Below, in pieces: positions 1,994-24,734 of a stretch of DNA of 24,734 nucleotides. A program made the position numbers and the translations under genes. The stretch's first letter is position 1. The number at the start of each line of letters is the position of its first letter. A model generated the notes under the pieces. The model was not told where the DNA came from. It made no database searches and saw nothing but the letters and a program-made list of their open reading frames with translations. The stretch spans positions 12,709 to 37,442 of the forward strand of contig MU647748.1 in assembly GCA_026770585.1 (NCBI GenBank), written 5' to 3'. The stretch is from Baffinella frigidus. Its lineage: Eukaryota > Cryptophyceae > Cryptomonadales > Baffinellaceae.

Positions 1994-2591
1994 ACCAGGA
2001 GTAAGGCTTGTTGTCTCCGGTGGCGGATCGGGGAGCGGCTTTGAGAGTGTATACCAGGTACGACGATCCGCGCGCGCGGTCGCGCGTGTTTCCGCCCGAG
2101 CGAAGCGGGACGGGAGTGCAGATCGCCCTCGGAAACCGCCCACACGGCGTCCGTTTTGAAAGTCGTCGAGCTCACCACGCAGGATGCATGTGAGGACGTC
2201 CTCCCGGGCGAAGGTGGGGGTGCACACTCCCGGTGATAGCTTTCCGCCATACACGTCGCAGATAGCCGTTCATTCCTTCAGGGACATCTCCTTCTTCAGT
2301 GCCACCTTGGAGCAGGTTGGTGACGGCGGGCTGGAGGTCCAAGTCCGAGCAGGCGTGTCCCTAGGTTGCGCTGGAGGGACCTGGAGGGAGAGGAAGGTGC
2401 GGCGAACTTCGAAGCCCCGTATCGAGACGGTTGTCCAGTCGTTCTGCCGGGATTCGGTAAGGGTGTTCTCGTTTTCTTCCGTCAGGCGGGTTCCACTCAA
2501 GCCAAGATACGTGAAGCCGGACTGTTGTTCCGTTGATTGGTCGAAAAGGAGTACGCCCCACGCCTGCGGGTCCGGAGTGACATCCTTTGAG

Positions 2592-2905
2592 GTGTCCGGA
2601 AGGTTACCGTGGTCAGGTTCCTCGGGGAAGTTCCTCAGCCCGAGCTCCCTCTTCTGGGTCTCTGCGGGAGGAGACGCTTCCGGAGGGGTTCCCAAGACAC
2701 CCTGGTCTGCATAGGTATCTGCGGAGGGGCGCGGTTGGTTGAGCCCCACGGAGAGGTCACCGTAGACGGGTTCCTCGGGGGAGCTTGTCAACCCGAGCGT
2801 CTTCTCTGGGGTCTCCGCGGGAGGAGACGCTTCCGGAGGGGTTCCCAAGACACCCTGGTCTGCGTTGGCATCTGCGGAGGGGTGCGGTTGGGGGAACCCC
2901 ACGGT
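2592..2905 (-). repeat. 153-bp coding duplication (51 residues, two copies)
   Basis: Two adjacent copies are offset by 153 bp; the shared GGAGGAGACGCTTCCGGAGG lies near 2667 and 2820. On the minus strand each copy contains ADQGVLGTPPEASPPAET, followed by an acidic Pro-rich stretch. The period keeps the reading frame of the surrounding long ORF. Confidence 0.85.
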
Positions 2906-3339
2906 GAGGTCATCCACTTGGGAGGGATCGTCCGGTTCGTCCCGGAGAGTGTTCTCGTCTGCGGATTCCCAAGTGGCAACGTTGCCAACGTAGGTAACCG
3001 TGGTGATGAGCGGCACTTCCGGAGCGTTGGACCGCGCGGCTGCTAGTTTGTTGAACAATTCCAACAGCTTTGGGGTCCAATTCAGAGGCTGGTGGTCCAT
3101 GCAGGGCACGTTCACCGGGTTTTCTTTGTCGGGAAACGTCTCGTGCCACTCCGCGAAAAATTCCGCCAGTTCCGGTAGTACTTCCGTGTGTTGGACCGGC
3201 GCGTCCGGTGCGGACAGGTTTCCCATGATGTCCTGCTCTGTCAGGAAAATTATGGGAGACTCTGGGATGTCGTACTGCAGCGCGGCGGTCTCTTCCGTGG
3301 ATACGTTCCTGTACCCTAGGAGGGTGTCCGCGTACTGGA

Positions 3340-4131
3340 AAAGGACTTGCACGGCAGGGATCATGATCGAGGCGTTCTCGTCCACAGTTTCAGCCTGGAA
3401 AATTATCTCCGGCACTGGGAACACGGTGTCCTGTGTCGCGGGGATCATCTTCGAGGCGTGTGCGTCCCCGTGAAGGTCAGTCGCGTCCTGGAAAATAATC
3501 TCTGGTACCGAAATGTGGGCGCCCTGCGGGGCAGAAGTCATTTTCGAGGCGCTCCCGTCTCCGGGAAGGTCGGTGGCTTTCTGGAAAATAATCTCTGGCA
3601 CCGGAATCGCATCGCTCAGCGGTGCAAGAACCATTTTCGAGGCAATCGCGTCCCCGAGAAGGTCGGCAGCCGTTTGGAAAATAATCTCCGGTACCGGAAT
3701 TGCGGCGTTCTGCAGGGCAGGAATCATTTTCGAGGCGTGTGCGTCCCCGAGAAGGGCGGCAGACGTCTGGAAAACAATATCCGGCACCGGAATCGCGGCA
3801 CGCTGCGGGGCAGGAGTTATTTTCGAGGCGCTCGCGTCTCCGGGAAGGCCGGCAGCCGTCTGGGAAATAATCTCCGGCACCGGAATCACATCGCTCTACG
3901 GGGCAGAAAATAATTTCGAGGTGTTCGCGTTCCCGGGAAGGTCGGCAGTCGTCTTGAAAATGATCTCCGGTACCGGAATTGCGGTGTGCTGCGGGGCAGG
4001 AATCATTTTCGAGGCGCTCGCGTCCCCGGAAAGGTCGGCAGGCTTCTGGAAAATAATCTCCGGCACCGGAATCGCGGCGCTCTGCGGGGCAGGGATAGTT
4101 TTCGCTGCGTTGGCGTTACGGGAAAAAAAAT
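3340..4131 (-). repeat. 93-bp tandem repeat coding for a 31-residue unit
   Basis: About eight copies with an exact 93-bp period. The CGG(C/T)ACCGGA-type core recurs at 3410, 3503, 3596, 3689, 3782, 3875, 3968 and 4061. On the minus strand each unit contains a core like IPVPEIIFQ, then a xLxGDAxASKM segment and a Pro/Gln-rich linker. The period is a multiple of three and most differences keep the frame, as expected if the array was expanded under coding constraint. Degenerate units continue to about 3300. One copy carries the TAG at 3896-3898 where its sisters have CAG. Confidence 0.9.
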
Positions 4132-4786
4132 CCGACATCGAGATGGTGTTATCGATGGCTGCTTCCGGTTGATCCTCGCCTATTTTCAGGAAATTCTCCA
4201 TGGTGCCCATTTCCACACCTTCCACCACGAGTTGAGGCTGGAGCTGTCTCGCCTGCCTCGTGGTCCAAGGCATCGTCGCGGGTGTAGGGAATACCGACAG
4301 GCAGCCGTGGTACGCGGCACCGTTGCGCCCTAGGTATTCGACCGTTCCCAGAGGGGCTGCGGTGAAAGCCGTCTCGCACTGCCAGCCCCAGGGGTTCCCA
4401 GATTTTTTCGGAGCCGTTTGCTGCACATGGGGCCCCGTCCTAGGGTCGGGTCCGCATGCGGAGGGTGCGGTCGGGGCAGGGTTGGCAGGGTGCAGGGAGT
4501 GCAGCGAGGTCTGCACAGCCTGTTCGGACGGGTCCATTCCCGGCTCGGATCCGCACGGTGGCTTGGTTTTTGCCCACGTCGCCCTCCATCTCTCCCGGGA
4601 ACGCTGGTCCCCCACGCTGCGCATGCCCTGCGACAGCGTCGTTTGCACCCCGCGTGGGATTCCGACGACTGCTGCGCCGGCCGGCAGTGGGGGTCCGATC
4701 CCGTCCGTGGGTCCGCGCAGCAGGGTTTGGTACAGCGTTGCCTGCCATGCGTTGCGCGGGGTGGTGGATGGTGGGGTCCACAGCGG

Positions 4787-4970
4787 AGTGCTCTCAACGC
4801 TTGGGGGGGTCATGGTCGTCTGCGGAGTATTCTCAACGCTTTCGTCCGTCTGCGTCTGCGGAGTAATCTCAACGCTTTCGTCCGTCTGCGTCTGCGGAGT
4901 AATCTCAACGCGTACGTCCGTCTTGTTGCCCAGCGGAGTATTCTCAACGCTGCTGTTGCCTAGCGGAGTA
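4787..4970 (-). repeat. 42-bp coding repeats (SVE-x-TP motif)
   Basis: Short tandem units with a CGGAGTA(A/T)TCTCAACGC core recur at roughly 42-bp or shorter spacing. On the minus strand they encode repeated (S)VE(I/N)TPQTQTDE segments. They sit in the N-terminal low-complexity part of the interrupted long ORF. Confidence 0.7.
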
Positions 4971-5826
4971 GTCTCATCGCCTTCGGATCCCGTGGTGACA
5001 GGGGAAATTAGGGCGTCTTTCGTCCGGGTATTCGCGAGCATGCGTGCGGGCGCGGGCTGGCTGTAGCTGCGACGCTGCTTGCGCGTGTGTCGTGATTTGG
5101 CGTTGCTCTGCGGTGGCGCGGGGATGCTTGCAGGAGCGGCCACAGGGGGGGGCACGGCTAGCTGCTCCCCGCCGTGGCGGATGGCGGTGCTGTGCGATCG
5201 GGCAGCAGCGGCTGTGGTGGGGAACACGCCTAGCGTCTGTTCCCCGCCGCAGCGGATGGTCCTGGTGGGGAGAACGCTCGGCGTGTGCTCCCCGTCGCCG
5301 TAGGTGACTTCTCGCTCCGCACAACGGGACCGACCTCACCGGAGGACGGCCCCACCCCCACCCCTGCCACCACAGACTGCCTTCTCCTTCCCCTCCGGTT
5401 GCACCTTTGCAAGTAGCATCCGGGCCACTGACCGGATGCATCCTCTCACCCTGGTGAGGGGTCGTTCCTTTTGCCTCAAAGCCTTCCCGTGGAGGCTCCT
5501 TGCGGTGTGTGCTCTGCTCTCTCGCGAATTGTGGCGCGACTAGCTGTGCATGCTGGGAAGAATGAGGGGATTGCAGTCCCTCACCCCGTGCAGGCCCCCG
5601 GCGGGCCCGATCGTTGCGGCATTTTGGTTGGCTCTCTCGGTTGAGCGGGGAGGGCACTATCTGCGAACCGTCCCGCCGCGTTGTAGAAGGCGCGCCCGCC
5701 GCCTCTGGATGCTCCATGTCGAAGACGCGACGTGCCCCGCTCAATCCGTGAGCGGCCACTCGGGTTTCTTCGACCACTTTCCCAAAAGTTCGGCTGGGCG
5801 GCCACTGACGGGTTCTCTCGGTCGAA

Positions 5827-11361: not shown

Positions 11362-12330
11362 NNNNNNNNNNNNNNNNNNNNNNNNNNNNNNNNNNNNNNN
11401 NNNNNNNNNNNNNNNNNNNNNNNNNNNNNNNNNNNNNNNNNNNNNNNNNNNNNNNNNNNNNNNNNNNNNNNNNNNNNNNNNNNNNNNNNNNNNNNNNNNN
11501 NNNNNNNNNNNNNNNNNNNNNNNNNNNNNNNNNNNNNNNNNNNNNNNNNNNNNNNNNNNNNNNNNNNNNNNNNNNNNNNNNNNNNNNNNNNNNNNNNNNN
11601 NNNNNNNNNNNNNNNNNNNNNNNNNNNNNNNNNNNNNNNNNNNNNNNNNNNNNNNNNNNNNNNNNNNNNNNNNNNNNNNNNNNNNNNNNNNNNNNNNNNN
11701 NNNNNNNNNNNNNNNNNNNNNNNNNNNNNNNNNNNNNNNNNNNNNNNNNNNNNNNNNNNNNNNNNNNNNNNNNNNNNNNNNNNNNNNNNNNNNNNNNNNN
11801 NNNNNNNNNNNNNNNNNNNNNNNNNNNNNNNNNNNNNNNNNNNNNNNNNNNNNNNNNNNNNNNNNNNNNNNNNNNNNNNNNNNNNNNNNNNNNNNNNNNN
11901 NNNNNNNNNNNNNNNNNNNNNNNNNNNNNNNNNNNNNNNNNNNNNNNNNNNNNNNNNNNNNNNNNNNNNNNNNNNNNNNNNNNNNNNNNNNNNNNNNNNN
12001 NNNNNNNNNNNNNNNNNNNNNNNNNNNNNNNNNNNNNNNNNNNNNNNNNNNNNNNNNNNNNNNNNNNNNNNNNNNNNNNNNNNNNNNNNNNNNNNNNNNN
12101 NNNNNNNNNNNNNNNNNNNNNNNNNNNNNNNNNNNNNNNNNNNNNNNNNNNNNNNNNNNNNNNNNNNNNNNNNNNNNNNNNNNNNNNNNNNNNNNNNNNN
12201 NNNNNNNNNNNNNNNNNNNNNNNNNNNNNNNNNNNNNNNNNNNNNNNNNNNNNNNNNNNNNNNNNNNNNNNNNNNNNNNNNNNNNNNNNNNNNNNNNNNN
12301 NNNNNNNNNNNNNNNNNNNNNNNNNNNNNN
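11362..12330. other. Assembly gap (969 N)
   Basis: An uninterrupted run of N. Different tandem repeats abut its two sides, so the true length and content are unknown. Confidence 0.99.
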
Positions 12331-14062: not shown

Positions 14063-14509
14063 CCCCGCCCTCCTAGTGGACTAGTTTGATTGCCTTGGTC
14101 AAGTAGTGTAGCATCAAGGGGGCGTCGATTTCCGACGACCCCTTGTCCAAATTGGTGTGTGTGCTCTCCTCTGCACAGCCTCCACGGGAGGGGATCTATT
14201 GCTGCTGGGTCGGTGTCAACACAGCGCACACGGACCGAGCACGTTTTGCATCTCCTCTCTCACTCCGCTGGTGACGCAACCCACTTAGCTGATACCGATG
14301 TCTTCGGGAAACGCTCCATCTAAACCATTCCCGCACAACTTGCAAATGCTTTCGCCAGTAACGTGACCAATATTCCCCCGAAAATCCGGAGAAGGTGGGC
14401 TTCGTTCACGTTTAAGTAGACTGTTCACTTGAAGTGGAAAGCAGGGGAGTGTGGCTGGGCGCAGTCTCATCAGAACGTATGCTGGCCGCGCTGTCCAACG
14501 GCGCGCGAG
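14063..14509. other. Unique spacer between two telomere-like tracts
   Basis: No gene is supported. A minus-strand frame 14285-14470 is short and of uncertain start; it includes SPDFRGNIGHVTGESIC. The DNA CAGTAACGTGACCAATAT near 14356 resembles AACGTGACCAATAT near 13211, which also lies about 100-150 bp before a telomere-like tract. Confidence 0.3.
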
Positions 14510-14649
14510 TAAACCCTAAAACCTAAACCCTAAACCCTAAACCCTAAACCCTACACCCTAAACCCTAAACACTAAACCCTAAATCCTAAACCCTAAATCC
14601 TAAACCCTAAACCCTAAACCCTAAACCCTCAACCATAAACCCAAAACCC
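14510..14649. repeat. Interstitial telomere-like tract 2
   Basis: About 140 bp of CCCTAAA with few variants (CCCTACA, CACTAAA, TCCTAAA). It is less degenerate than the 13.3-14.1 kb tract and has the same orientation. Confidence 0.9.
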
Positions 14650-14650
14650 G

Positions 14651-14932
14651 GTGCCCCAGGCGGCATTGCTGAACATCTCGATCTCGAGCGTGTGGCGCCG
14701 TCCAGAATCGCTCGCCGCGGGCGTGATGCTCTCGTGCCCGTGCAACCCCGACAACGCGACCGACTGGTGCGACGACGCGCGTGACGGGAAAGTCGGCGGC
14801 GGCGGTGCCTGCTCCGTCGCGTGGTGTGTGGCTGCCCCCCGACTCTTCGTCCACCTTGGATCGTGGGCTTTCCAGGACCACCTCCCACACCGTATCCCTT
14901 CTCAGATGACCGCACTATCGAGGAGAAAATGA
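14651..14932 (+). CDS. Doubtful ORF or exon fragment, Cys-rich
   Basis: This 93-codon frame has strongly G/C-biased third positions in its middle and a Cys/Asp-rich stretch (SCPCNPDNATDWCDDARDG, then GGGGACSVAWC). That looks more protein-like than its neighbours. It begins at once after a telomere-like tract, and no homolog is recognised. It may be an exon fragment captured at a rearrangement, or chance in GC-rich DNA. Confidence 0.2.
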   Translation: MPQAALLNISISSVWRRPESLAAGVMLSCPCNPDNATDWCDDARDGKVGGGGACSVAWCVAAPRLFVHLGSWAFQDHLPHRIPSQMTALSRRK

Positions 14933-15187
14933 GGAAAGGTGCAAACATGGCTTAGTACCAGGTTCGTGAAACCACGCAAGGCCCTTCGGGGAGGATTTTT
15001 TATGTTTGTTTTTGGAGACTTTGTTTCGTTCTTAGAGCCGTTTGTCAAATTTTGGCAGGTATGGCCCCGGGCTCTTCGAAAAAACTGAAGAGATTGACTT
15101 CTGAAAAACACCCCCCTACAGCCTTGCATGGACTACAACGAGCAAACGTAAAATCTCCCAGACCGAGAGAGCGAGGAGTTAATTAAC

Positions 15188-15216
15188 GGTTTAGGGTGTA
15201 AGGTTTAGGGTTAGGG
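15188..15216. repeat. Short telomere-like block in reverse orientation
   Basis: GTTTAGGGTGTAAGGTTTAGGG followed by TTAGGG: a few TTTAGGG units on the plus strand, opposite to all other telomere-like tracts in the window. Confidence 0.8.
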
Positions 15217-16218
15217 AGGGAGAGGCCCAACTCGAGCCGGGTGTCATGCGAGGATGCCGTCCGGCACCTTTAGGTCCTTCAGGTTCTTTTAACTCCAACC
15301 ATAGGCGGACACCGGAACTTATCATGGTGGCGGACCCCGGCGTTCTGGGGCGCGCTGCATGTGTCGCAGTGAAGCGCGTCTTGAAATGTGGTCGGCGACC
15401 GCGGGCGCGGCGGGCTCATCGCGGGGCACCGGTGGACGACCTCTCAAGGAACCTCGGCTCTGGACACCAGCGTCCCTTGGGCATCTCAGCCTCTTGGAGG
15501 CGCGCGTCGGCTCCCCCTCCAGCGTTTTGCTGGGGAACAGCGGCCGGGTGGAAGGGGGGGCGAATGGGGAGGTCGGCAAGGGGCGGCGGATCGGATGGGG
15601 CTCTGCCCTCGCTCTTGGCCTCGTGAATCTCCTGCTGAAGGTCCTCGCCAGGCTGCATCCCCTCCCTGTCCCCACGTGCGCAACGTGCTGACCCCTCCTG
15701 TGTGATCTACGGTTCCTGTGTGCGTGCTCTTCTGCGCCCGTGTGCGTGTGTGCTCTGCTCCCGCGTGTTCTGCTAGGGCTGACCCAATCCACATACCACC
15801 CCGCCCCGCTCGGCCGCTGCCACACCATCACCCGTCAATGCCTCCCTCCGCGCCCACACACTACGTACTCAGTGCACTCTTTTTGCGTGTGGGCGCAGAC
15901 GATCACCCCCGGGTGAGCGCTGGCGTCCACGAGTGTCCAAGGAGGCAAGACACGAACCCTCGCCAGGCTGCCCCCCCTCCCTCCACCTCGTGTTCACGGC
16001 CAACCTCCCGCCCTCCCCCCATGTTTGCTTCTACTGTCTTTCACCAGTCAACTACTCCGTTTGCTGCCTGTTTGGACCTGTCTCACAGCAGACCCTGCTC
16101 CATCCTTGCACTTTGCCCTGGTTGAATTTTGGATCAGCCCCCGCTGCTGTGAAATTTAGACCTAACCATGGACCCTTTGGACCCGACCAGTGGAAGCACA
16201 GCCACGCCCTTGGTGGAC
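15217..16218. other. GC-rich spacer, no gene supported
   Basis: Overlapping frames exist on both strands, but all have low-complexity Arg/Pro/Ser translations typical of chance in GC-rich DNA. A TGTGCG-rich segment lies at about 15715-15765. Confidence 0.4.
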
Positions 16219-16223
16219 TTTTG
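16219..16223. repeat. Target-site duplication, left copy (TTTTG)
   Basis: TTTTG immediately precedes TAATAGAGG, the left end of element 2, and is matched at 22674-22678. Confidence 0.75.
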
Positions 16224-16627
16224 TAATAGAGGCCGCAACAGGGGCAGAGTGTAGAAGTGGAGAGCAGGGGAGCCTCCACTCTGACGCGAGGGGCAAAAGG
16301 GAAAGAAGAGAGAGCTTCTTGTCATGCGAGCATGCAGAGAGGAAGGCTCTGCTCACCCGCAGGCGTAGGGCGCTGTAGTGCGTGCGCGGAGGCAGCGAGG
16401 CCGAGGCAAAGACGCCGAAGAGGAGGAGAAGAGAGAACAAGGAACGTGTCAGAGAAAAGATCTCGTGAAGAGATTTCCTCCGAGACGGCCCCCTTCCTTT
16501 TATTCAGTCAACTTTTCCTAAGTTGATTTCTTCAAAAGTTAATGCCTCCTTTGAAAGTTTCCTTAAGTTGACGTCCTTAAGTATCCTTTCGAGTCTCACA
16601 ACCTGTGCCTTATTAGCTCGTCCCTCA
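16224..16627 (-). repeat. Element 2 LTR, downstream (3') copy
   Basis: 404 bp from TAATAGAGGCCGC to GCTCGTCCCTCA on the plus strand. It differs from 22270-22673 at about two sites (CAGTCAAC versus CAGGCAAC; TTTCTTCAAAA versus TTTCTCCAAAA). In minus orientation a GAATAAAAGG motif about 130 bases in could be a TATA-like or polyadenylation signal. A signal-peptide-like frame (MFSLLLLFGVFAS) starts only with TTG and is not called. Confidence 0.9.
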
Positions 16628-16636
16628 CCCTCGCTC
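16628..16636 (-). promoter_or_regulatory. Candidate polypurine tract of element 2
   Basis: On the minus strand GAGCGAGGG directly abuts the LTR start TGAGGG. This is where the plus-strand primer of an LTR element is expected. It is short. Confidence 0.4.
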
Positions 16637-17577
16637 AATGTGAGAGAGAGAACAAGTCATTCATCTAGGTATTGATACTCCTTATTGAAGGTTTGACGAT
16701 GCTCGTTGCTCCCGGGTGGCGTCGGTTCTTTGGAGGGCTGTTCACAGCACTTTCCAGGCATGAAGGTCAAGTTGAATGGTGGTTCCGTTGAAGATTGATT
16801 CGGGATAGGTTTCCTATCCAAGGACGTGATTTCAAAGGTTGTTTAGGACTTATCTAAGTCCTGTTTCTGAACTATGAGCATGTTGTCGTCGGTTTCGGAC
16901 GGGGAGATTTCAACCAAAAGAACGAAGGTCCAAGCTAAAGCTTTTTGTTGACGCAAGAGTAAAGAAGGAGGGACCGTCCTCGGAGGCAGTTATGTACAAA
17001 AGATGCGAGGAGGGAAGTCGAGATAGGTTTCTATCGACTCTCTAGGCGCGTTGTGAAGGTTTCGCGCGCAAGAGTCAGGAGACTCTTTTCCATTCGAGAT
17101 CGCAGATTTCTTTTTGTCAAGAGTTCTTACGAAGTTACTTCCCGTTCGCCGAGTTCCGAGGGAACAGGGCTTATGGGGAAAATGTGTCAACTCTTCCTTT
17201 GGCAAGGTTGAGGACGCCGCTCGTCTGTCTTTTGATAGAAGAGCGGTGGAGGTCGTCACAGTCACTGAAGTAGAACTTAGTAAGTTCTGCTTCTTTGACT
17301 ATTCTACGAGGTGTGTCCCTCGCAGAGTTGGAGAGTGGCGGATGCGGTAACGGAGGTCTTGTTGGCGAGTCCCTCGCAGATGTCGTGAAGGGTTACGTCC
17401 CGTGGTGGAAGAGAAGCGTCGCGTGGTGCTGGTGTGCTACTTCTGACTAAGTTGATAGCTCTCCCTGCCCCCCCGAGTCCTTGAGACCAGAAAGGGTCGA
17501 AAGGAGTCTCGTTTCAGGAGAGCTGGAGGCTAGCAGCTGAAGATGTCGTCGAGGCGGAGGCGGAGGTCAGGCGGTGT
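16637..17577 (-). other. 3' untranslated part of element 2
   Basis: About 0.94 kb between the zinc-cluster stop codon and the polypurine tract. The longest minus-strand frame (16990-17265) has no recognisable domain, and I see no enzyme motif. Confidence 0.45.
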
Positions 17578-18528
17578 TCACGGCGTGCAGGCGCAGTTGT
17601 ACGGGAAACAGCGGCACTTGTCGCAGCGCTTGTACGTGGAGTTCTTGACCTTGCTGGCTTTGTGGATCTGGTACTCCGCGCAGTTGGCGGTGTGGAGCTT
17701 CCAGGTTTCCTCCTCCTTGGGCTGGTTGCAGTGCAGGCAGAGGCCCCGAGTGTTCTTACGAGGACTCGAGGCATGGCGCGCGCCGTCGTGGTGGCGTGCG
17801 GTGTTGCGGTCACTCTGGCTCCGTTCCGCCCATTCTGTGGGGCGAAGACGTTTGCCGAGGGTGTTGTCGACGCGCGGTGTCGAGGGACGGGATACGGAGG
17901 CCGACTGTGGTGCTGGCGTGACGATGTAGTGTTGCCGTCCTTGAAAGATTCGCGCCAGTTGAAGACGGTTGCGTAGGACCAGGATGTCGATGGAATGTTG
18001 GAGGCCGGAGGCGTCGACGGGAGTGTCGTAGCGAGACCGGGTCTGGATGATGATGTCGACCACATCGCCTCCGTCGGCGATGGAGGGCTTGTCTTGGTTG
18101 GTCAGGACTGCGTTCATCACGGCACGGAGCTGGTCCTTGCCGTCGTGGACAACACCGCGGGGGTCTTGCCCTTCCGGGTAGGCGGAGGTGTTGAGGATGT
18201 GGTTGATGTGCGCCAGAACGGGGCGACGGGGATGCGTTTCAGACAGGTCGACGGGGATGCGTTTCAGACAGTAATCACACCAACGAGTGGATGGGTCGTC
18301 GTCGGTGCCGGCACCTTCGATTGGTCCGAGCGCGTCGCTGCCCCTCCAGCCGTGAAGGTGCTGAGGGGGATGGTCGGTGATGAGCCTCCCGTAGGGGGAG
18401 TAGATCGCTGGCGCACCCTCCGGGGCGGCCCCGAGTACGATGGAGATGTGATCGTCATCGAGGAGAGCGGCAATGGCTCGAGAGACGGAGGCGGGATCGG
18501 TGTCACGATCCAGCTTCACGTTTACGCT
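17578..18528 (-). CDS. Zinc-cluster protein frame of element 2 (ORF2)
   Basis: About 316 codons, open from 18528, just after a TGA at 18529-18531, to a TGA at 17578-17580. There is no ATG in the first 130 or so codons; the nominal start at 18519 is GTG. It is therefore probably expressed as a continuation of the upstream winged-helix frame by splicing or frameshift, not alone. Numbering from 18519, a first Cys/His group has C81, C84, H104 and H107. The C-terminus has C261, C264, H276 and C280 (CX2CX11HX3C), then a cluster C299, C302, C304, C309, C311, ending CACTP. Such C2HC or C2H2 groups usually bind zinc and nucleic acid, as in retroviral nucleocapsids, but the spacing is not the CX2CX4HX4C knuckle. 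A 25-bp duplication at 18224-18271 lies between C84 and H104. The family is not recognised. Confidence 0.6.
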   Translation of the reverse strand, partial: SVNVKLDRDTDPASVSRAIAALLDDDHISIVLGAAPEGAPAIYSPYGRLITDHPPQHLHGWRGSDALGPIEGAGTDDDPSTRWCDYCLKRIPVDLSETHPRRPVLAHINHILNTSAYPEGQDPRGVVHDGKDQLRAVMNAVLTNQDKPSIADGGDVVDIIIQTRSRYDTPVDASGLQHSIDILVLRNRLQLARIFQGRQHYIVTPAPQSASVSRPSTPRVDNTLGKRLRPTEWAERSQSDRNTARHHDGARHASSPRKNTRGLCLHCNQPKEEETWKLHTANCAEYQIHKASKVKNSTYKRCDKCRCFPYNCACTP

Positions 18529-21092
18529 TCACGTTTACGACGTGTAGGATGTTGGGTTCGGAGAGGCCTATCACACCGGGTGACAGGGTGAAGAGGGACT
18601 CGTAGACGACTGCACGTCGCGCGTTGTTCCTCGGTGGGCTTGACGGTGTAGCGGACGATGGGAGGTGGGGCGTCCGAGATGCGGGGGATTCGTGAAGCTC
18701 CCGTGGGACGCGAGGGTGTCGAGGAGGTGCCAGTGTGTCCCTCGTCAGATGGTAGGGTGGTCATGCGGTCCCTCCGGTAATTGTAGCCGACTTGGATGAT
18801 GACGCGCTCCGTGCCAGGAGGCGCGTCATTTGGAGGAACGAAGATCTTCTGGTCGACGAGACGGTCGAACTCGAGGAGGTAGGTGATCTGGTCGGTCGAC
18901 GGTGCAGCAGCGTGATAGAGGGTCCAGAGCTCCGCACAGGACAGGCCGAGAGGCCTGGACTGTGTGGTTTTGGCGACGAGGTCAAGGATGGAGGCGCGAG
19001 TGTTGTGCTGTGCCAAGCTCGTGGTCGGGGCAGGGCTTCCCGAGGAGGCTTTTGTGGGACCGGAGGTGATTTGGAGGTGGCAGTCGCGCAGGCCGCCTCG
19101 CGAGGGGCTCACCGTGATGAGTCCCTTGGAGATGAGGGAGTTCGTGGCCCTGCGAAGGGCACTCGGTGAGAAATCGGGGTAGGCCGCCTCGACCTTCGTC
19201 ATGATGGATGCCTCCAGGGAGGTCGTGCCGTCGCGGTCGCGCATGACCGTCATGACGGCGGCTGCCGCGGCGGCGTCCGCGCTGCTGTTGGAGACCCCTT
19301 CGAGGGCAGCCTCCTTTGGGGGAAGGCCACCCGCGGGAAGGCTTTTGGCGGTGGACGCGGTGATTGATCCCATGGATGAAGTGGAGATGGGGTCGTTCCT
19401 TGGAGAGTGGCTTTCCGAGGAGCTCCCGCGCGGCGCGGAGTGGCGGGGGCGCTTCGATTGTGGAGGTGAAGGGGCGGTGTCTCCGAAGGTTTCCCACGAT
19501 ACTGCAACCGGGCGTGGGCCGGTTGACCGTCGGGTCGTGAATTTTTTGGATCCTTCGCCTCTGGGAGTTCGTGAGAGTGAGCGGCTGCGAGCAACGGAGG
19601 TAGATCGGAGGGATGATCCTCGGGAGCGAGCGCGAGGTGACCGCGGTGGGGTGCGCGAGCGTGCCGGGGACCGAGTGGGGCGCGTCTTGGACCCTGATGG
19701 TGCGTCGGGGAGTGTCGATTCCACACCCGCTGCGTCCGACGAGTCCCTGGTGGTTGCTGCGAAGGTTGTACCGGTGGTGTCACTTGGAGACGGATCGTCG
19801 CCGGAAAGGACTCCGAGGGTGTTGGTCTCAGTTGAGATTTGAGAGACCAATGCCTCGATGCCTTCCTGGGTGGGATCAGCCGGCCAGTGGTGGTGGAATC
19901 GGCGCACGTGTTGGCGCTGCGCGTCGGTGACTAGGTGAACGGCGGTCAGGATCGAGAGGTCGAGGTTGACGAGGGTGCGGGGCCACTGTACCGGGTCGGT
20001 GCCGTGGACTTGTGTCGTGATGGTGCGGAGGGCATCAATGCACGCCTGGAGGGTAGGTCCTTGACGTGCTCCGATCGGGTGGTGGTATGGGCCGACGCGA
20101 ATTACTTCCAGTTGTAGCGATGATGCCCGGTGCATGAACTCCGTGCACACCAGGAGGTGGAGGTTGTAGGGCTTGTTCTCGACCAAGGGGGCGAGGTCGG
20201 CGACGTCCCCTTGAGTCATGGAGGCAACGGTGGCGAGGCAGAAGGGGCACGCTGTGAGAGTGCTGGGATCGAGTCCGGCGAGGACGAGATTCCGCAGTAC
20301 TTCCAGGATGGCGGCGGTGGCGTCTGGCAGCATGAGCAGTTGCTCCGGGCTGAAGATCTTTGTGGTCACTGCCGTTTGAAGCGCGCCCATGAACTTGCCG
20401 ATGATGTTCGTGGCGTGTCGGGTGGACTCTTTCTGGAGGAAGGTCTCGTCGGGGTCCACGCTCATGCCTTGGGCAGTGGTGAACAGCTCGAGCGTCGACG
20501 AGGCCTGGCTGTGGAAACTGAGTTGCGCCTTTCGAACGAATTCTGCTGCCGCGGTTCTCGCCAAGAGAGACTCAGCCTTGGCTGATTCGCTCGAGAGGGT
20601 GTTCGTGGCAGCGGAGGCCGTGGGTTCCTCGGAGGCAGGTTCTTCGAGGAGCGGGGCTCCGATGTCGAGCGCATCCGGAAGATCGTTGGAGCGTGAGCGC
20701 GCGTTCCCCGAGGTCGCGTTCTGATCGACGATAGGTGAGTTGATCTGCGAGGAGGCTCCGGCGGGTTGGCCGGTGACGGTGAGCGTGGAGCTGGGACTGG
20801 TTGCTCTCGGCGGGGGTGCATGCGCTGTGGAGATCGCTTTGAACTTAGTTCCGTTGACGACGAGGGTGGCGTTGCCCTCGCCCCAGAATGTCAAGCTGTG
20901 GAGAGCTGTGTTGATCTGTTCCGTGGAGGCAGATCGGTGATCCTCAGAGTTGGCTTGCTGAAGCAGCTTTTTAACTGCAGCGGTGGTGAGGCCGCCCGCG
21001 CTTTTCGCTCCCCGAAGCATTTCGTTGCGGATGATGCTCAGGATCGTGCGGTGGAGAGACGTGAACGTTCCGCTGGAGGATTCGGGCTCCAT
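18522..21092 (-). CDS. Three-winged-helix, SR-rich protein of element 2 (ORF1)
   Basis: The frame is open from 21377 to a TAA at 18522-18524. The first ATG is at 21092, giving 856 residues; GTG at 21200 gives 892, the numbering used here. Domains by eye: a winged-helix-like fold at about 46-123 (helices RTILSIIRNEM, TTAAVKKLLQQ, TEQINTALHSL, then strands ATLVVNG and TKFKAI); an acidic linker; a mostly helical 205-460 with a CPFC pair at 318-321; an Arg/Ser-rich basic stretch at 505-555 and SKRPRH near 582; a second winged helix at 644-712 (SLEASIMTKVEAAY, PSALRRATNSLISKGLITVS); a third at 735-806 (RASILDLVAK, SCAELWTLYH, ITYLLEFDRLVDQKIFV); and a basic tail. Repeated winged helices plus an SR region point to nuclear DNA or RNA binding. 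The position first after the 5' LTR suggests a gag-like role, and the helical middle could be capsid-like. No known family was recognised. Confidence 0.7.
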   Translation of the reverse strand: MEPESSSGTFTSLHRTILSIIRNEMLRGAKSAGGLTTAAVKKLLQQANSEDHRSASTEQINTALHSLTFWGEGNATLVVNGTKFKAISTAHAPPPRATSPSSTLTVTGQPAGASSQINSPIVDQNATSGNARSRSNDLPDALDIGAPLLEEPASEEPTASAATNTLSSESAKAESLLARTAAAEFVRKAQLSFHSQASSTLELFTTAQGMSVDPDETFLQKESTRHATNIIGKFMGALQTAVTTKIFSPEQLLMLPDATAAILEVLRNLVLAGLDPSTLTACPFCLATVASMTQGDVADLAPLVENKPYNLHLLVCTEFMHRASSLQLEVIRVGPYHHPIGARQGPTLQACIDALRTITTQVHGTDPVQWPRTLVNLDLSILTAVHLVTDAQRQHVRRFHHHWPADPTQEGIEALVSQISTETNTLGVLSGDDPSPSDTTGTTFAATTRDSSDAAGVESTLPDAPSGSKTRPTRSPARSRTPPRSPRARSRGSSLRSTSVARSRSLSRTPRGEGSKKFTTRRSTGPRPVAVSWETFGDTAPSPPQSKRPRHSAPRGSSSESHSPRNDPISTSSMGSITASTAKSLPAGGLPPKEAALEGVSNSSADAAAAAAVMTVMRDRDGTTSLEASIMTKVEAAYPDFSPSALRRATNSLISKGLITVSPSRGGLRDCHLQITSGPTKASSGSPAPTTSLAQHNTRASILDLVAKTTQSRPLGLSCAELWTLYHAAAPSTDQITYLLEFDRLVDQKIFVPPNDAPPGTERVIIQVGYNYRRDRMTTLPSDEGHTGTSSTPSRPTGASRIPRISDAPPPIVRYTVKPTEEQRATCSRLRVPLHPVTRCDRPLRTQHPTRRKREA

Positions 21093-21377
21093 GCCGAAGG
21101 CGAAGTGGAGATCGAGGGTGGTGGTTTGGAGAATCGTGGGATCCGGCGAGTTGGAGGTCCCGATTGATGGCGCCGTGGAGGTGGTCGACCGCGGAATCAC
21201 GATGTGCTGGCTTACGGAGGGCCGCTCATGTCGATCCGGTTCCGTGACGAGCCTGGGACGAGTCGAATTTTTGTTGAGGTGGTGATTTTGGGCAGGGTCA
21301 GGGATGAGGGTGAAGAAAAAAAGGGTACGAGAGTCCTTTACAAGGCGCCTGTAGCAACTGTCCCGGGGTCGCAGCGT

Positions 21378-22269
21378 TCAGCAAGTCGGTTTGCCACTTC
21401 AGCTAGGGGGGTTCTTTGCACTGTGGGGCAGACTACCCCGACAGATCCCCTAGTCATCAGTCATTCGATTTCGCGATCACCAGCAGGGAACAGTGGCTTC
21501 AGTACTCTTGAAGTCACCCTGTGGTTCACACCGTACGAGGTCCGGCCCCTTTGCACACACTAGCCCAACTGGATTGCCCTGGATTTGCCATAACTCTGTT
21601 GCTTTGTCTATCTAGCCGGGCACGGTGGTGGATGCTTTTTCAGAATATTTTCTGGAATTGTGTGCTGGCGGGTGTTTGGCGTGAGGCAAGTCGTTGTCTG
21701 GGGTGGTGGACTATCAAGTCTGCAGGGTCGCGGTCTGCCGGCTTCGAGTCTGGGCTCGGAATCGGTGTCTAGCTGGTTTGAGGCCATGTGCAAGCGGTGT
21801 GTTAGTTGAGCATGGGCCATTGGTCAAGTTTTCATGAAGGGTCGCGGTCTGCCGGCTTCGAGTCTATGCTCGGAATCGGTGTCTAGCTGGTTTGGGGTCA
21901 CGTGCAAGCGGTGTGTTAGTCAAGCATGTGCCAATGGTCAAGTTTTCATGAATGTTGCAGGGTCGCGGTGGTTGGTCTAGTCCGGGATCATGCTCTAGCT
22001 GCGTCGTCAAGGCTTCGGCTGGCCGGCATCAGATCGGTGTCTGGAGCTGCAAATGGGCGGGTGTGCGATGTTTCTTCGGTTTGGTCTGCCGGCGTCGGAT
22101 CTAGTCCGGAATCATCTCTAGCTGCGTAGTCAAGGCTTCGGAGGGCCGGCATCAGATCGGTGTCTGGAACTGCAAATGCTGTCAGGGCGGGCGGGTGGCA
22201 ATTTCCAATCTTCTTCCCCTCGCGCCTCCCTGGGTCAGAGTGGAGGTGCGTGGGGGCAGGGCCCTCACC
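21378..22269 (-). other. 5' leader of element 2
   Basis: About 0.9 kb between the upstream LTR and ORF1. It is non-coding as far as I can see and carries the tandem repeats listed separately. If transcription starts within the LTR, this would be a long leader, where packaging signals often lie (inferred). Confidence 0.5.
21720..22190. repeat. Degenerate 114-124-bp tandem repeats in the element 2 leader
   Basis: AGGGTCGCGGT recurs at 21724, 21838 and 21959. The first two are followed by CTGCCGGCTTCGAGTCT and ATCGGTGTCTAGCTGGTTTG. A related pair with CTAGTCCGG(G/A)ATCAT starts at 21977 and 22101, each continuing with GTCAAGGCTTCGG and GGCCGGCATCAGATCGG. Confidence 0.8.
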
Positions 22270-22673
22270 TAATAGAGGCCGCAACAGGGGCAGAGTGTAG
22301 AAGTGGAGAGCAGGGGAGCCTCCACTCTGACGCGAGGGGCAAAAGGGAAAGAAGAGAGAGCTTCTTGTCATGCGAGCATGCAGAGAGGAAGGCTCTGCTC
22401 ACCCGCAGGCGTAGGGCGCTGTAGTGCGTGCGCGGAGGCAGCGAGGCCGAGGCAAAGACGCCGAAGAGGAGGAGAAGAGAGAACAAGGAACGTGTCAGAG
22501 AAAAGATCTCGTGAAGAGATTTCCTCCGAGACGGCCCCCTTCCTTTTATTCAGGCAACTTTTCCTAAGTTGATTTCTCCAAAAGTTAATGCCTCCTTTGA
22601 AAGTTTCCTTAAGTTGACGTCCTTAAGTATCCTTTCGAGTCTCACAACCTGTGCCTTATTAGCTCGTCCCTCA
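22270..22673 (-). repeat. Element 2 LTR, upstream (5') copy
   Basis: Same 404-bp sequence as 16224-16627 with about two substitutions. In minus orientation it is the promoter-side copy, starting TGAGGGACGAG at 22673. Confidence 0.9.
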
Positions 22674-22678
22674 TTTTG
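22674..22678. repeat. Target-site duplication, right copy (TTTTG)
   Basis: TTTTG directly follows ...GTCCCTCA, the right end of element 2, and matches 16219-16223. Confidence 0.75.
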
Positions 22679-24340: not shown

Positions 24341-24426
24341 ATTTTCTGGATTAATATCTGGATTGATGTAGGAACCCTGAGTAACTAATCACGAGCCAGC
24401 CACCACCAACACATCAAAGAAGTGTT

Positions 24427-24665
24427 TACCCTCAATCCTACACCCTACACCCCAAACCCGAAACCCGAAACCCGAAACCCGAAACCCGAAACCTCAAACC
24501 ACAAACCACAAACCACAAACCACAAACCACAGACCCCACACCCTAAACCCTAAACCCCAAACCCCGAAACCCCAGACCTCAAACCCCAAACCCGTTTTCA
24601 ACCCCGATGCTGGCACCGCGCGGTGCCATGGAACCCTAGACCCTAAACCCTAAACCCTAAACCCA
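24427..24665. repeat. Telomere-like tract with amplified variant heptamers
   Basis: It begins with CCCTACA/CCCCAAA units, then about five consecutive CCCGAAA heptamers, then about five CCACAAA heptamers, and returns to CCCTAAA. A 16-base palindrome, GGCACCGCGCGGTGCC (24612-24627), interrupts it. Confidence 0.85.
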
Positions 24666-24734
24666 GAACCCGCAAATATCCTACCAGAGAGGGTTTCATT
24701 TCTTTTCAAACAACTGGTGAGCAGCAGTCGGACT

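Follow-up and report, generated by a model that had tools for sequence, protein, structure and literature searches.

A probably helper-dependent LTR element in the cryptophyte Baffinella frigidus with a gene for a Gag-tailed, winged-helix-like protein

What kind of mobile element carries nearly identical long terminal repeats (LTRs), a gene for a protein with winged-helix-like segments, and no polymerase? The question is posed by a stretch of DNA, 24,734 nucleotides long, from the cold-water alga Baffinella frigidus (hereafter the window), in which a first-pass annotation had proposed a young non-autonomous LTR element with a self-encoded protein. That proposal is borne out, the protein being one without a known gag, integrase or reverse transcriptase domain. 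We put the probability at about 0.72 that the element is a helper-dependent, non-autonomous satellite of the Copia tribe, encoding a Gag-tailed protein whose putative role is to bind nucleic acid.

The two LTRs, at 16224–16627 and 22270–22673, are 404 bp each and identical at 402 positions, confirming the two or so differing sites first noticed. The TTTTG duplication at the outer ends is likewise present, at 16219–16223 and 22674–22678; the chance of a 5-bp match at two fixed ends is p ~0.0011. Coding runs on the minus strand, and read in that sense the LTR is TGAGGG...CTATTA. In coding order, the features are:

22674..22678, unstranded: target-site duplication copy 1, TTTTG on the plus strand
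22270..22673, minus: 5′ LTR (coding sense), 404 bp, TGAGGG...CTATTA
22247..22269, minus: primer-binding-site (PBS) side, GGTGAGGGCCCTGCCCCCACGCA
21093..22246, minus: leader, ~1.15 kb, with repeats at 21721–21948 and 21993–22178
18615..21092, minus: interrupted ORF, first piece (826 codons, open), equivalent to residues 1–814 of the relative P0002
18605..18616, minus: internal-deletion junction, P0002 residues 815 to ~912 absent, frame shifted
18514..18539, minus: 13-bp tandem duplication (18514–18526, 18527–18539), the second frame-changing lesion
17578..18525, minus: interrupted ORF, last piece (315 codons and stop), equivalent to P0002 937–1245
16628..16638, minus: polypurine tract, TTGAGCGAGGG, adjoining the 3′ LTR
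16224..16627, minus: 3′ LTR (coding sense), 404 bp, two differences from the other LTR
16219..16223, unstranded: target-site duplication copy 2, TTTTG on the plus strand

The 23 nucleotides of the PBS side are conserved after the 5′ LTR of related elements, being identical on contig C827, matching at 20 of 23 positions on C1169 and C1288, and occurring as close variants on C460, C1280 and C1346, but they do not start with TGG and represent a candidate primer site only. Self-priming was considered and rejected, as the best pairing with the LTR (11 of 12 pairs) was reached by 83 of 500 shuffles. By eye, TAG/GTGAGG at the boundary of LTR and leader resembles a splice donor, and the leader contains a tRNA-like motif; Rfam and tRNA searches of the window returned no match.

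The interior had been described as free of polymerase, and profile searches for pol domains agree. Pfam scans gave no family above cut-off for the two main frames of the element or for 20 further stop-free frames in and around it, the longer ones among 61 listed frames of at least 60 aa. The Copia polyprotein of C1288, introduced below, matched the window at E 0.31 at best. Integrase and RVT_2 domains were found neither in the window element nor in its relative on C1169, and both are present in C1288.

The 892-aa and 313-aa frames are pieces of a single damaged gene of ~1,250 codons when intact. By tblastn, the 1,247-aa relative P0002 matches the window at 21092–18615 (residues 1–814), 18646–18518 (residues 901–943) and 18525–17587 (residues 937–1245), in three successive frames. 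An internal deletion and the 13-bp tandem duplication break the gene, leaving the window copy unable to encode the complete protein. Either this damage followed insertion, or the copy moved wholly in trans. The first piece encodes winged-helix-like segments 1–3, a helical region with CxxC...H...C, and an SR-rich stretch, and the last piece a CxxC/H cluster followed by C-terminal CxxC...H...C and CxxCxC clusters. The missing stretch corresponds to a fourth winged-helix-like segment, and relatives have four, perhaps five, such segments followed by zinc clusters. The segments and clusters first reported are therefore present, but in one damaged gene instead of two frames, and the three winged-helix-like segments are the remnant of a longer array.

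Solved winged-helix structures match the predicted model, and this comparison firmly supports one segment alone; the model is poor (mean pLDDT 39.8), and the prediction for the C-terminal piece (pLDDT 34) was not used. Foldseek searches against PDB and viral libraries gave no match at E≤0.001, a PDB sequence search gave nothing below E 1.5, and Pfam gave no gag match. Internal duplication as the source of the array was also considered, and profile comparisons of seven segments (21 pairs) showed no signal for it.

The gene is found in at least 11 tblastn segments on at least eight contigs, and the family members P0004 and P0005 occur among transcripts. An element on C1169 has 325-bp LTRs with three differences (99.1% identity), flanks of CTGTT and ATGTT (four of five positions matching), and a stop-free winged-helix frame that spans 1,372 codons, or 1,387 counted from stop to stop. 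Its ORF lacks the last zinc cluster, so that either the Gag-like tail described below is dispensable in some copies or the C1169 copy is defective. Aligned with the window element, it matches in the ORF, across the LTR end and PBS side (83% over 47 nt), across the polypurine tract and LTR start (87% over 31 nt), and weakly in two leader segments, with nothing aligned beyond these parts. Two or more LTR families, dissimilar in the body of the LTR, thus carry the gene, and they also have in common the LTR ends, the PBS side, traces of leader repeats and the polypurine tract (TTGAGCGAGGG in the window element, TTGAGAGAGGG on C1169 and also on C1288). Weakly related leader repeats occur in C1169, C1280 and C1288 and, at the same threshold, not in C827. 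C1213 is a mosaic, with a window-like LTR and an ORF end 94% identical to that of C1169. Related LTR starts were also seen on C1346 and at C1169:~51.9k, with no delimited element. More distant paralogues on C895 and C961 (29–30% identity, no LTR pair detected) match the C-terminal part of the protein in separate frames at E 1e-10 to 1e-15, and the C895 gene is followed on its own strand by a polypurine and LTR-start-like sequence with two mismatches.

An autonomous relative with reverse transcriptase and integrase, sharing the LTR ends, was found on C1288. It is a 12.7-kb Copia-type element whose 2,645-codon frame contains rve and RVT_2 (E 4e-25). The 23 nt after its 5′ LTR (C1288:4487-4812) are those found in C1169, and ahead of its 3′ LTR, again as in C1169, stands TTGAGAGAGGG/TGAGAGACGA. 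Its LTRs are only 88% identical to each other, which makes this copy old or mosaic. C1169 and C1288 align strongly (LTR 86%, leader 70%, ORF A 60–64% in amino acids, 3′ region 73–74%), and between these shared flanks the winged-helix gene of C1169 occupies the place of gag-pol in C1288. The sharing between the window element and C1288, by contrast, is limited to the LTR ends, the PBS side, the polypurine tract and weak leader repeats; its LTR body did not align with the C1288 LTR beyond the ends. Judged by these LTR and cis sequences in common with a pol-bearing element, the window element is a non-autonomous derivative of the Copia tribe. Around copies of its own 404-bp LTR no autonomous element was found: the C1288 polyprotein matched nothing (E≤1e-3) near those on C827, C460, C1213, C880, C179 and C1346, in stretches of up to 10 kb each, of which that on C1213 holds 4,280 N. 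Neither LTR-edge motif was found in 18 integrase loci with ~1.5 kb or less on each side, and of five extended integrase loci, four of them partly covered, one (C1288) contains the polypurine/LTR-start motif.

The C-terminus of the winged-helix protein aligns with a zinc cluster from the C1288 Gag region (33% identity over 82 aa, E 2e-4 in a search of a handful of sequences), with a score reached by none of 1,000 shuffles that held Cys and His fixed. By this comparison the two clusters are homologous. The earlier remark that three winged-helix-like folds in one protein are not a familiar gag architecture holds in that no Pfam gag family is present; the protein is nevertheless not wholly foreign to gag, because its last ~80 residues match a zinc cluster in the partner's Gag region.

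These observations are consistent with a helper and satellite relationship, in which a related complete element probably copies the winged-helix element. The host would make the LTR transcript, while capsid, reverse transcriptase and integrase would come in trans from a C1288-like helper. The common PBS side, polypurine tract and LTR ends would let the helper enzymes copy and insert the element. The encoded protein may bind the RNA or cDNA of its own element through its domains, and its Gag-like tail could bring it into the helper particle or pre-integration complex, favouring its own genome. More tentatively, the satellite may bring its own chimeric Gag-like protein, a nucleocapsid-type zinc tail of the helper joined to a winged-helix array, which would select its own genome for helper particles or choose insertion sites. 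If so, it would parallel, among retroelements, the satellite viruses that supply a structural protein of their own, and the C895 and C961 relatives would represent an old, separate lineage of Gag architecture.

A doubtful alternative, still deserving some weight, is that a once-autonomous lineage with a divergent Gag of winged-helix type lost its pol, as in TR-GAG elements, the helical region being capsid and the zinc clusters nucleocapsid. The Gag-like C-terminal cluster fits this reading, as do the C-terminal matches of C895 and C961, the sequence downstream of the C895 gene, and an all-helical region of ~250 residues in the low-confidence model of P0004 (164–416), for which no capsid appeared among the matches listed, barely a test since one domain fills the list. 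However, the C1288 polyprotein revealed no pol beside the members examined (C895/C961, C827, C460, C1213, C880, C1280 and C1169), and C1169 keeps a separate upstream ORF A in common with C1288.

It is improbable that the gene is a captured host gene, a passenger with no role in transposition. Gene capture by LTR elements has been described (PMC7264820), and C895 and C961 are distant paralogues with no LTR pair detected. However, point estimates of dN/dS (Nei–Gojobori) lie below 1 in nine of nine pairs, at 0.23–0.69 in eight and 0.87 in the youngest. The ratio is 0.48 for window–C827 and window–C1169, and for the C-terminal piece 0.26 with C1169 and 0.23 with C1213; it lies at 0.58–0.87 in the three pairs with C1280 and, across 100-codon blocks of window–C1169, between 0.14 and 0.82. 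A recent, one-off capture is unlikely because at least two LTR families carry the gene and its dN/dS is below 1. In protein searches that each scored ~8,000 candidates, the relatives came exclusively from B. frigidus records and from one jgi and one MMETSP cluster, and viral contigs yielded none; the match of the protein's tail to the partner's Gag region also speaks against a passenger.

We give slightly less credence still to a role in copy-number control, in which the Gag-tailed protein would interfere with helper particles by analogy with the truncated Ty1 Gag p22 (PMC4599808). The few copies and a Gag-like tail in common on a different body would suit an inhibitor, but p22 is a portion of the Ty1 Gag itself, not a large winged-helix gene in place of gag-pol. 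Lastly, although tandem duplications are numerous in this region, the direct repeats almost certainly did not arise by segmental duplication or as an artefact of assembly. Among at least 12 LTR matches in the genome, a solo LTR at C179:535794-536197 has CTTAG on both flanks, so the 5-bp target duplication recurs at a second, independent site, the PBS side and polypurine tract lie at the correct inner ends, and the solo LTR together with the 99% identical LTRs of C1169 supports retrotransposition.

In more than one LTR family, gag-pol has given way to a conserved, otherwise unknown protein that keeps a Gag-like end. Two questions become testable in what would be a helper and satellite pair in a cryptophyte: how a retrotransposon parasite comes to have an edge over its helper, and whether some of Gag's work can fall to winged-helix domains.

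To our knowledge, non-autonomous LTR elements bring either no protein or an ordinary gag. LARD and TRIM elements are LTR-bounded and helper-dependent, as the window element appears to be, and lack a long conserved ORF, whereas the ORF here is conserved with dN/dS below 1. TR-GAG elements, non-autonomous and retaining only gag, resemble it in that both are bounded by LTRs, have no pol and contain a single long ORF that includes a nucleocapsid-like zinc cluster; the body of the protein here differs, consisting of winged-helix-like segments and an SR-rich stretch with no Pfam gag family domain. With the Copia (Ty1/copia) element C1288 it has in common the LTR ends, the PBS side (20/23), the polypurine tract and a Gag-type zinc cluster, to which the C1169 member alone adds the LTR, leader ORF and 3′ region; unlike Copia, no integrase or reverse transcriptase was found, and the winged-helix gene replaces gag-pol. 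Maize Bs1 is a gene-transducing LTR element, and plant LTR elements with additional ORFs are described in PMC7264820. Like these, the window element has an extra gene between its LTRs, replacing or beside gag-pol; unlike the gene-transducing elements, its gene occurs in more than one LTR family and ends in a match to the partner's Gag region. Ty1 p22 (PMC4599808) is, like the protein here, a Gag-related product made without pol, but it represents the C-terminal part of its own element's Gag.

The element at 16219..22678 of the window is an LTR element. As claimed by the first-pass annotation, with exact place and length, it is bounded by direct repeats of 404 bp that carry 2 differences and have TTTTG outside both; equally, no pol was found in it. 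Its long frames lie on the minus strand, so that, read in coding direction, it extends from 22673 to 16224, with LTRs reading TGAGGG...CTATTA. Directly inside the 3′ LTR lies a purine run, TTGAGCGAGGG, which from its leading TT onward is pure purine but for a single C.

Other features of the window
2270-5227, minus strand: two neighbouring frames (539 aa and 443 aa), neither matching Pfam, in which a motif around IPVPEIIFQ recurs
11362-12330: 969 N (assembly gap), so that several ORFs listed there are meaningless
14469-14708, 15183-15217 and 24384-24685: CCCTAAA-type (telomere-like) repeat arrays flanking the element on both sides, inside the contig and not at its end

The two separate frames described at first turned out to be one gene by comparison with P0002, a protein from a jgi cluster encoded by a single ORF (1,247 aa): the window copy is spread over three frames, interrupted where sequence following P0002 residue 814 is deleted and again by a tandem duplication of 13 bp. 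In three protein searches (about 8,000 candidates scored in each, out of 5.8 billion sequences), the only relatives besides the window were B. frigidus records (P0003, P0006, P0007, and P0005 under taxid 697907, merged into B. frigidus), one MMETSP cluster (P0004) and the jgi cluster. P0006 is encoded by contig C827 at 99-100% identity, which identifies the genome as that of B. frigidus or of something very close. The transcript P0005 looks mosaic, beginning as a C1169 type and continuing as a P0002 type.

The published CCMP2293 draft genome is described as 534.5 Mb with 41% repeats (PMC9756366). In the 382 Mb of genome sequence that we searched, P0002 matched at least 11 segments in 8 contigs, and the window LTR had at least 12 matches, of which 6, the window's own two among them, span all or nearly all of its length.

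Copies with the window LTR
C179: solo LTR, CTTAG on either side
C827, C460: 5′ LTR kept, with more or less of the interior
C1213: 3′ LTR, 3′ region and gene end kept, then an N gap
C880: LTR piece

The C1213 copy is a mosaic, its LTR window-like (86%) and its gene end 94% identical to C1169.

C1169 carries a second LTR family with the winged-helix gene, an element of 8,968 bp with 325-bp LTRs (3 differences) and a stop-free frame of 1,372 codons; a 97% relative on C1280 is cut off at the contig end. An antisense acidic frame of 225 aa without a Pfam match lies in the 3′ region of the C1169 element (L035:7651-8328, minus). Common to the window and C1169 elements are the gene, 47 nt spanning the LTR end and PBS side, and 31 nt spanning the polypurine tract and LTR start, with two weak matches between the leaders, a pattern that common copying machinery would preserve.

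dN/dS of the winged-helix gene (Nei-Gojobori, nine pairs; pairs share copies and are not independent)
window-C827: 0.48
window-C1169: 0.48
C827-C1169: 0.49
window-C1280: 0.58
C1169-C1280: 0.87
C827-C1280: 0.69
C-terminal piece, window-C1169: 0.26
C-terminal piece, window-C1213: 0.23
C-terminal piece, C1213-C1169: 0.49

An autonomous relative of the kind sought by the first-pass annotation is a Copia-type element on C1288, with integrase and RVT_2 within one 2,645-codon frame. Its LTRs (326 and 315 bp, 88% identical) are flanked by ATAAT/ATAGT, and its PBS side, polypurine tract and LTR start are as in C1169. The two elements match in LTR, 3′ region and leader, the last with an upstream ORF. 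The stretch enclosed by these parts is about 7.85 kb long in C1288, where it contains gag-pol, and about 4.1 kb in C1169, where it contains the winged-helix gene. The integrase profile PF00665 has 18 matches in the genome; Pfam on 10 of them gave further Copia-type domains in three and a Gypsy-type H2C2 domain in three. Relatives of the C1288 polyprotein occur in 10 of the 17 other integrase loci (9 at 43-83% identity), so the tribe, Copia-type elements sharing LTR ends, PBS side and polypurine tract, would have several helpers. C1288 is strongly indicated as helper of the C1169 element and indirectly as that of the window's own subfamily.

Across 63 loci and the window (306,467 bases, overlaps counted), every occurrence of the LTR-end/PBS motif is at an LTR end of the tribe, C1346 included, and the polypurine/LTR-start motif (≤4 mismatches) has three simple-repeat matches besides those in the tribe. 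A weak leader repeat is present in the window element, C1169, C1280 and C1288; this survey did not find it in C827.

The zinc cluster that follows a helical-looking part of the C1288 polyprotein is matched by the C-terminal ~80 residues of P0002 (33% over 82, E 2e-4 in a database of a handful of sequences). None of 1,000 shuffles attained this score, nor did any when the Cys and His positions were kept fixed; outside this zinc tail nothing in the two proteins aligns. The winged-helix protein therefore bears a Gag-type tail. From its place we take the C1288 region ahead of pol to be Gag; it has no gag domain match in Pfam. In the C1169 member the tail has been lost at the point where the gene runs into C1288-like 3′ sequence, which speaks against a need for the tail in every copy or marks this copy as defective. 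At about 9000-9600 of C1288 (L055/L040), membrane-like segments separate the zinc cluster of the Gag region from a protease-like DTG motif (by eye); such a stretch is unusual for Copia elements.

Distant relatives of the protein, at 29-30% identity, are encoded on C895 and C961 (BLASTP of separate frames, E 1e-15 and 2e-10). No LTR pair was found around either gene; the downstream flank of the C895 gene contains GTGAGCGAGGG|TGAGAGACCA, with 2 mismatches to the tribe motif. These relatives could be either old elements or genes of the host. Beside the C961 gene, L032:567-5639 holds an open frame of 1,690 aa with odd composition and no Pfam match above cut-off.

Of the original proposal, a non-autonomous family with a self-encoded protein, the LTR element and the protein stand, no pol having been found, and the two frames give way to one gene. 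In the literature listings, the larger ones covered by their best-ranked entries (for example 20 of 152 and 12 of 127), titles and abstract openings describe no such element. The window element is best read as a helper-dependent member of the Copia tribe that carries a new kind of conserved protein, with an inferred role and a Gag-like end.
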